Under the pieces are notes generated by a model. It was not told where the DNA came from and did not search any database. It was given only the letters and a program-made list of their open reading frames with translations. A program made the translations under genes and the position numbers. From the IMG/VR virus record IMGVR_UViG_3300028837_001110, positions 1 through 39,541 of that record: DNA of 39,541 nucleotides. The stretch is one strand, 5' to 3'. This document shows, in pieces, positions 10,505 through 14,138 of this stretch. Each line of letters starts with the position of its first letter. The first letter of the stretch is position 1. This stretch comes from a virus.

Positions 10505-10562
10505 TAAAAAAAGCCGCTTACCAGGCCTTCCGGGGTGCAGCCCTTCCAGCCAGGTAAACGGC
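10505..10562 (-). terminator. Rho-independent terminator of leader RNA 1
   Basis: Minus-strand GCCGTTTACCTGG (10562-10550) pairs with CCTGGTAAGCGGC (10525-10513), 12 of 13 positions counting one G.U, followed by seven T. The loop holds CTGCACCC (10540-10533), perfectly complementary to GGGTGCAG (10580-10573) at the 5' end of the transcript, so an alternative fold would prevent the terminator. Same design as 2634-2692. Confidence 0.85.
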
Positions 10563-10590
10563 TTGTCTCAGTCTGCACCCTGATAATCTA

Positions 10591-10619
10591 ATAATATCAG
10601 GACCTTATGGAAAAGTCAA
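10591..10619 (-). promoter_or_regulatory. Sigma70-type promoter for leader RNA 1
   Basis: Minus-strand TTGACT (10619-10614), exactly 17 bp, TATTAT (10596-10591). Predicted start near 10584, giving a leader of about 80 nt ending in the terminator at 10505-10562, ahead of the initiator-type tRNA. Confidence 0.75.
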
Positions 10620-13589: not shown

Positions 13590-14138
13590 TTATAATTCTC
13601 CCGTTTTCAAAAGATAAAACGACCACGCAGAAAGATAACTTGCACCGCCCCCGAAAGATTTATTGTCCCCTGGGCTACAGATTAGATTGTCCCATCCAAC
13701 ATTGCACACCTTCAAGAAGCTGTTTTGCGGTGTAGGGTATACGATAGCCACATGGCCGGAACGCCTTCCCTTAATTGTATGCGCGCACAGTAAGACAGGA
13801 TAACCCAACCAGGCGCAAAAACGAGCTTGATCCTGGTCTACCCGGGTTATATATTTTATTGTCATATCGGGCGCTCGCTTGCATATACTATTTGCCGTCA
13901 TCACACAGCCGAGCTTGCCCCATCCTTCCAGCCATTGAAAAAAATTATAATGCATCCATGCCGTGTCTGCTCCGCACTGTTTAGCGATGTATTCAGATGC
14001 CCGATTACAATGCGTTTTGTTTTTCCCATAATAATGTCGCTTAAAATCTTTTCTTTCCAGAGCTTCACGGCATACCTTAATCAGCTTTTCCCGTGCTTTA
14101 TCGTGTCTTTCTTCCCAAATCCATGTTAACTTATCCAA
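13590..14138 (-). CDS. Endolysin: NlpC/P60- or CHAP-like cysteine peptidase/amidase
   Basis: A 182-residue protein. KTHCNRASEYIA (C44), SGHVAIVYP (H129) and VCNVGWDN (N146) are the Cys-His-Asn catalytic set of papain-like peptidoglycan hydrolases, in the order and spacing seen in a phage family with a THCN motif. It would cut peptide or amide bonds of peptidoglycan at lysis. No signal peptide or binding domain is evident, so it depends on a holin. The start is a TTG at 14138 with AAGGAG seven bases upstream; there is no suitable in-frame ATG. A 14-codon frame with its own strong Shine-Dalgarno ends just before this TTG. It is the last gene of the late operon. Confidence 0.8.
   Translation of the reverse strand: MDKLTWIWEERHDKAREKLIKVCREALERKDFKRHYYGKNKTHCNRASEYIAKQCGADTAWMHYNFFQWLEGWGKLGCVMTANSICKRAPDMTIKYITRVDQDQARFCAWLGYPVLLCAHTIKGRRSGHVAIVYPTPQNSFLKVCNVGWDNLICSPGDNKSFGGGASYLSAWSFYLLKTGEL

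Follow-up and report, generated by a model that had tools for sequence, protein, structure and literature searches.

Two leaders on the minus strand of a phage window

The DNA analysed here (the window) is a 39.5-kb stretch from an IMG/VR virus record, IMGVR_UViG_3300028837_001110, in which PHROG matches were found to a portal, a major head protein, DNA methyltransferases, a DnaD-like helicase loader and an SbcC-like subunit. Two short RNA leaders, leader 1 (W1) and leader 2 (W2), were studied; the genes near them lie on the minus strand. In each leader, an element near the 5' end of the predicted transcript, E, is complementary to an element in the loop of the terminator, E', and the 5' arm of the terminator stands between the two. 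For leader 1, the initial annotation had proposed a consensus-like promoter, a leader of about 80 nt, an element complementary to the terminator loop and a terminator, and all of these were located at the proposed places on the minus strand by sequence inspection, consensus scan and folding (Table 1). The promoters, start sites and termination are predictions from sequence and fold.

The 8-nt complementarity of leader 1 was perfect. When the 5' part and the loop were shuffled, a match of the observed length appeared with P ~0.003, and the minimum free energy of the leader was -36.2 kcal/mol (z -2.96). The complementarity recurred with a different sequence in leader 2, as had been claimed; the match was 9 nt long, and its P value in the same shuffling was 0.0005-0.001. 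Neither the 8-nt word pair of leader 1 nor that of leader 2 had a second exact copy within the window, and the E and E' words of leader 2 were found nowhere else in the contigs scanned.

Leader 1 is followed by an initiator-type tRNA, an open reading frame (ORF) of 63 amino acids (aa), a 364-aa protein and an SbcCD-like gene. The initiator type of the tRNA-Met(CAU) was borne out by its GGG/CCC anticodon stem and by an acceptor end with no standard pair at 1:72. The description of the following genes as recombination genes held for the SbcC-like gene, which matched phrog_77; for the 364-aa gene preceding it, the only PHROG match is of unknown function. An Rfam search of the window brought only the tRNA to the gathering score. 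An Rfam riboswitch or T-box was rejected because weak-match searches around both window leaders gave nothing plausible, and the leader as a tRNA mimic was rejected because comparison of leader 1 with its own tRNA gave P 0.58.

Two further features were observed at leader 2. Directly after it stands a third very strong terminator (window 2596-2513, minus strand, -31.3 kcal/mol), which is multi-branched with three hairpins within its stem and in which neither an E element nor a promoter of its own was seen. A possible 31-codon frame (window 2725-2630, minus strand) runs through the leader and ends just past the U-tract; its ATG start has bases in common with the stop codon of the gene before it, and no counterpart is common to the other leaders.

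Leaders of a second phage and a selection blind to the pairing

Viral contigs were scanned for GGGTGCAG...CTGCACCC...TTTTTT, and 12 loci were obtained. A true homologue of leader 1 was present at one of them (L080), in a 64.5-kb virus contig designated G009, and the other loci with the E and E' words of leader 1 were repeats or plain hairpins rather than homologues. This homologue, G5 (U-tract at 43576), has kept the promoter as well as E and E', as GATTATCAGGGTGCAGACTGA and GGGCTGCACCCCG; its lower terminator stem differs in sequence from that of leader 1, with the pairing retained. The 8-nt complementarity is thus preserved in a relative. The window phage and G009 have genes in common, for example those for an ASCH-like protein and for a protein of 109-114 aa, with 49% identity in each case, and the G009 phage is a distant relative of the window phage. 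A scan of the whole G009 contig yielded four further leaders, G1 to G4, with the same layout and wholly different E and E' sequences of 7-11 nt (Table 1). The compensated stem of G5 and these four additional pairs upheld the earlier suggestion of a selected structure.

Table 1. Predicted leader elements and the tRNA of the window, with the further leaders of contig G009
Feature	Position	Strand	Basis
Leader 1, predicted promoter: -35 TTGACT (10619-10614), 17-nt spacer, -10 TATTAT (10596-10591)	10591..10619	minus	consensus scan, 10/12, TG before -10
Leader 1 RNA, ~80 nt, predicted start ~10584 to end of U-tract	10505..10584	minus	sequence and fold
Leader 1, E near 5' end, GGGTGCAG	10573..10580	minus	sequence; kept in homologue G5
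Leader 1, 5' arm of terminator, between E and E'	10553..10564	minus	fold
Leader 1, E' in terminator loop, CTGCACCC	10533..10540	minus	perfect complement of E
Leader 1, 3' arm of terminator and U7 tract	10506..10522	minus	hairpin -30.8 kcal/mol with T7
Initiator-type tRNA-Met(CAU) after leader 1	10482-10409	minus	ARAGORN and Rfam RF00005, 63 bits
Leader 2, whole	2750-2635	minus	
Leader 2, predicted promoter TTGACA-16-AATAAT	2723..2750	minus	consensus scan, 11/12
Leader 2, E, TCGGGCGGA, 9 nt	2706..2714	minus	sequence
Leader 2, E' in terminator loop, TCCGCCCGA	2660..2668	minus	perfect complement of E
Leader 2, terminator hairpin and U6 tract	2635..2691	minus	hairpin -31.7 kcal/mol with T6
G1 leader (G009), E TGGTCATGGGG	U-tract 37401		G009 scan
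G2 leader (G009), E TACCTGGGG	U-tract 53881		G009 scan
G3 leader (G009), E TGGTTACGGCA	U-tract 21291		G009 scan
G4 leader (G009), E CAGTAGT	U-tract 46490		G009 scan

Because the G009 leaders had come from a scanner that sought E:E', leaders were also selected in 2.42 Mb without regard to this pairing. The promoter had to reach 9/12, and a hairpin no weaker than -18 kcal/mol with six or more T had to lie within 45-120 nt. Seven leaders were selected in the two phages (0.10 Mb) and five in all other contigs (2.3 Mb). E:E' was present in all seven leaders of the two phages (shuffle P 0.001-0.033) and in none of the five found elsewhere. Considering that W1 and G5 are homologous, the seven leaders contain six independent E:E' sequences. 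It is extremely improbable that the complementarity arose by chance in ordinary terminators or reflects an inverted repeat at the DNA level: relaxed settings did give 0-5 looser matches per shuffled window, but the outcome of the blind selection speaks against chance, and the constant order of promoter, E, arm, E', arm and U-tract points to RNA.

Counted from the predicted start, E lay at nt 0-17, E' started at nt 41-49 and the U-tract was at nt 68-89 in the seven leaders, and their alignment revealed essentially nothing in common besides the U-tract. Such near-constant geometry combined with variable sequence is what selected pairing gives. The absence of conserved bases outside the U-tract also bears on a riboswitch-like leader that would sense a ligand or protein through an aptamer within the terminator. 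Terminator-embedded aptamers are known, for example that of the HMP-PP riboswitch (PMC6478431), but such a leader is very unlikely here, since no Rfam match was obtained either and the unrelated downstream genes speak against a common ligand. Attenuation controlled by a ribosome on a leader peptide is highly improbable: open frames do cross the terminator in some leaders (in leader 1, for example, one of 25 codons that begins at a GTG), but no frame is common to the leaders, the first 60 nt of G4 contain no ATG, GTG or TTG start, and the frames of G3 do not exceed 9 codons.

The genes that follow the G009 leaders were of several kinds. Downstream of G2 are tRNA-Leu(UAA), tRNA-Leu(UAG) and tRNA-Tyr, and these are followed by genes for a cytidylyltransferase, an oxidoreductase, a DegT-type aminotransferase and a NeuB-like protein. 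What follows G3 is a hydrophobic, membrane-protein-like ORF situated immediately before a baseplate-hub gene, and G1, G4 and G5 each precede small ORFs with good ribosome-binding sites. The strong leader terminators are not placed where operons end; they stand immediately ahead of tRNAs or start codons. The common theme of the leader targets lies in their being tRNA or accessory genes and not in a single pathway.

Several details of these G009 regions were recorded in addition. G3 together with its hydrophobic ORF (L093, 1291-1813) lies among tail-region genes in the manner of a moron-type cargo insert with its own promoter. About 600 nt past the G5 leader, at L094 4186-4259, there is a tRNA-like gene with a four-base anticodon call (taca). 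An 11-nt sequence, GGTAGCCCAAC, occurs both in the G2 loop beside E' (L094, ~13845-13855) and in the D-arm of the following tRNA-Leu (13889-13964), with an uncorrected shuffle P of 0.005.

Order of folding and the proposed switch

Constrained folding was carried out along the growing transcript, with energies for 37 °C and nested structures. Once E' emerged, every fold that left E unpaired was less stable than the E:E' conformer, the margin being 11-16 kcal/mol in six leaders and about 5 kcal/mol in G4. In six leaders the terminator did not overtake E:E' until -7 to 0 nt relative to the first U, and in G5 it never did so. Early formation of E:E' followed by a late takeover is the profile expected of an antiterminator that has to be overcome at the last moment. 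Two features of attenuators were found in the leaders: a promoter-proximal intrinsic terminator ahead of the controlled gene was present in all seven, and the energies of the nested folds gave an earlier-forming alternative fold that would preclude the terminator. The attenuator-like or small-RNA design proposed at the outset gained support from the recurrence of the architecture in G009 and from folding, which favours E:E' as the structure formed first.

Leaders 1 and 2 are probably members of a family of promoter-proximal RNA switches (attenuators) common to the two phages, in which the pairing of the 5' end with the loop serves as the antiterminator. The basis of this reading is the elements, their recurrence with different sequences, their geometry and the order of the energies; from these we infer that E:E' lowers termination in vivo and that a tuner acts upon it. 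Taken together, the seven leaders have the look of individual RNA on/off switches placed before tRNA and accessory genes, nearly every one with a pairing sequence of its own.

According to the proposed mechanism, E, the first element of the transcript (7-11 nt), would pair with E' in the terminator loop, with the 5' arm of the terminator between them. As E' emerges ahead of the 3' arm, E:E' would form first and the 5' arm would be enclosed in a closed loop. In this state RNA polymerase would read through to the genes beyond, be they a tRNA, cargo or early genes. With E occupied or displaced, or with a polymerase that waited long enough, the more stable terminator would form and an RNA of about 75-95 nt would be released. 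A parsimonious tuner would be the terminated RNA of the same leader, in which E is free and E' is in the loop.

This last step leads to an extension of the attenuator reading that is possible but tentative, namely that every leader works as an orthogonal feedback switch complete in itself. Once terminated, the 80-nt RNA might act in trans, pairing by way of E' (or E) with nascent transcripts of its own leader and driving termination, which would set a protein-free limit for each cargo gene. Cognate E:E' duplexes had energies of -11.3 to -21.8 kcal/mol and were stronger than most non-cognate ones within one phage (mostly -4 to -12 kcal/mol); between the phages, full cross-reaction is expected for W1 and G5. 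Self-feedback by the terminated RNA would explain the different E sequences within one phage, but plain divergence of sequence would yield different E elements as well. Moreover, G4 is hardly distinct from the non-cognate values, and the 8-nt words have no other exact copies in the window that could be further targets.

Several findings weigh against the leaders being antiterminated switches. When nested folds of the full-length transcripts are compared, stability favours the terminator in six of the seven leaders. A pseudoknot containing both E:E' and the terminator pays if its penalty is below 7-17.6 kcal/mol, so E:E' need not block termination. With 7 nt and P 0.02-0.03, the pairing in G4 is both short and weak, and it is barely separated from the non-cognate energies. 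No regulator was found, and the searches turned up neither a ligand core nor a leader peptide, and neither an Rfam family nor an antisense promoter. Finally, the leader family is known from two phages only: relatives of the portal and capsid genes (best segments 33-60% identical) were scanned and carried no such leader; protein searches gave no close relatives of the 364-aa early gene in viral contigs, genome contigs or known phages, and none of the SbcCD-like gene in viral contigs; and 80 loci obtained by a search with the ASCH-like protein included no further leader-bearing phage. The sole match in a search for the terminator-plus-tRNA-fMet pattern was an unrelated bacterial-type tRNA pair, and it was discarded. 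No host traces were detected among 340 genomes of one phylum.

The permitted pseudoknot is the core of a different explanation, in which E:E' and the terminator coexist, termination is constitutive, the product is a compact small RNA with a protected 5' end and read-through is incidental. Besides the energy balance, which permits a knot at a small penalty, it is favoured by the terminated fold, where E' is in the apical loop and E is free, and by the leaders having a promoter and terminator of their own, like small RNAs. Two observations make it rather unlikely: in the full fold just 0-8 nt connect E with a stem of 18-26 pairs, which would strain a knot unless the base of the stem opened, and all leaders lie directly before tRNAs or ORFs, a position better suited to control of read-through. 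The initial annotation had left stem exclusion and a pseudoknot side by side; exclusion is favoured for the state formed first, and the released RNA may nevertheless be knotted in the end, a matter that energies alone do not decide.

Known systems, significance and other structured elements

The antiterminator reading of the leaders has partial parallels. In the pT181-type attenuator, the leader has an antiterminated ON fold and a terminated OFF fold, which are flipped by RNA pairing (PMC4878617). The present leaders likewise would choose between antiterminated and terminated folds, pairing of the 5' region would decide, and RNA-RNA binding can flip the choice in pT181 (PMC4878617). However, the pT181 antiterminator sequesters the 5' arm of the terminator and a separate antisense RNA flips it, whereas E pairs with the loop beyond the arm. 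A consensus scan found no opposite-strand promoter-like site over either window leader; this, and the loop rather than the arm as partner, argue against an antisense RNA of the pT181 type.

The HMP-PP riboswitch (thiS motif) is a compact switch located wholly inside a terminator (PMC6478431). It resembles the leaders in being very compact and built into the terminator, and formation of the full stem is prevented there by an alternative P1 and a possible pseudoknot (PMC6478431). It differs in having conserved bases and a ligand; in the leaders geometry alone is conserved, and no Rfam model matches. Like the put RNA of phage HK022, which secures read-through without a phage protein (PMC9378689), the leader element is a phage element just after a promoter, an early one in the case of put. 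In contrast, put RNAs have sequence in common, and they bind RNA polymerase and suppress terminators farther away, whereas each leader has its own terminator and the seven have no common sequence. In Gifsy-1, a phage promoter gives rise to the terminated small RNA IsrK and to a read-through mRNA, with alternative folds (PMC4825925), a similar arrangement. IsrK, however, controls translation of the read-through form, while in the leaders the alternative fold bears on the terminator.

In the immunity systems of P4 (CI RNA) and P1 (C4 RNA), a short phage RNA complementary to its own leader acts on termination. These RNAs are processed and have several target sites, whereas here there is one E and one E' per leader and there are many leaders per phage. 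No description of leaders with pairing of the 5' end to the terminator loop was found in literature searches, whose coverage was incomplete.

If the proposed reading is true, a single RNA switch design can be multiplied within a phage, with changes of 8-11 bases keeping the copies distinct, and this architecture without common sequence would represent, in nature, the kind of orthogonal attenuator that synthetic biologists have built by hand. Behind the leaders stand tRNAs, a sugar-synthesis cluster and a cargo gene located amid tail genes, and the leaders may be the means by which these phages control accessory genes. Because only geometry is conserved, such elements can escape searches based on sequence and covariance.

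Other structured elements were observed during the analysis. In the portal relative L002, at ~2150-2260 (the minus strand is the gene sense), a long hairpin includes TTCTCCTT, to which the ribosome-binding site that follows, AAGGAGAA, is complementary, and this region is possibly a translation-masking 5' untranslated region. Two tRNA-like stretches of odd length lie on the minus strand of the window at ~3890-3770 and 3690-3575; they have the T-arms ggttcgagtcccgtccctggca and ggttcgactccccggctgctgt, and ARAGORN made no call for them. Three similar structured intergenic elements precede small genes on the minus strand at window 12770-12640, 12488-12370 and 12212-12118. Each consists of a CCGGG..CCCGG hairpin and a second hairpin whose sequence varies between copies with the pairing kept, and they contain AACCTTGAGGAGGGTT, which is able to fold over the ribosome-binding site.
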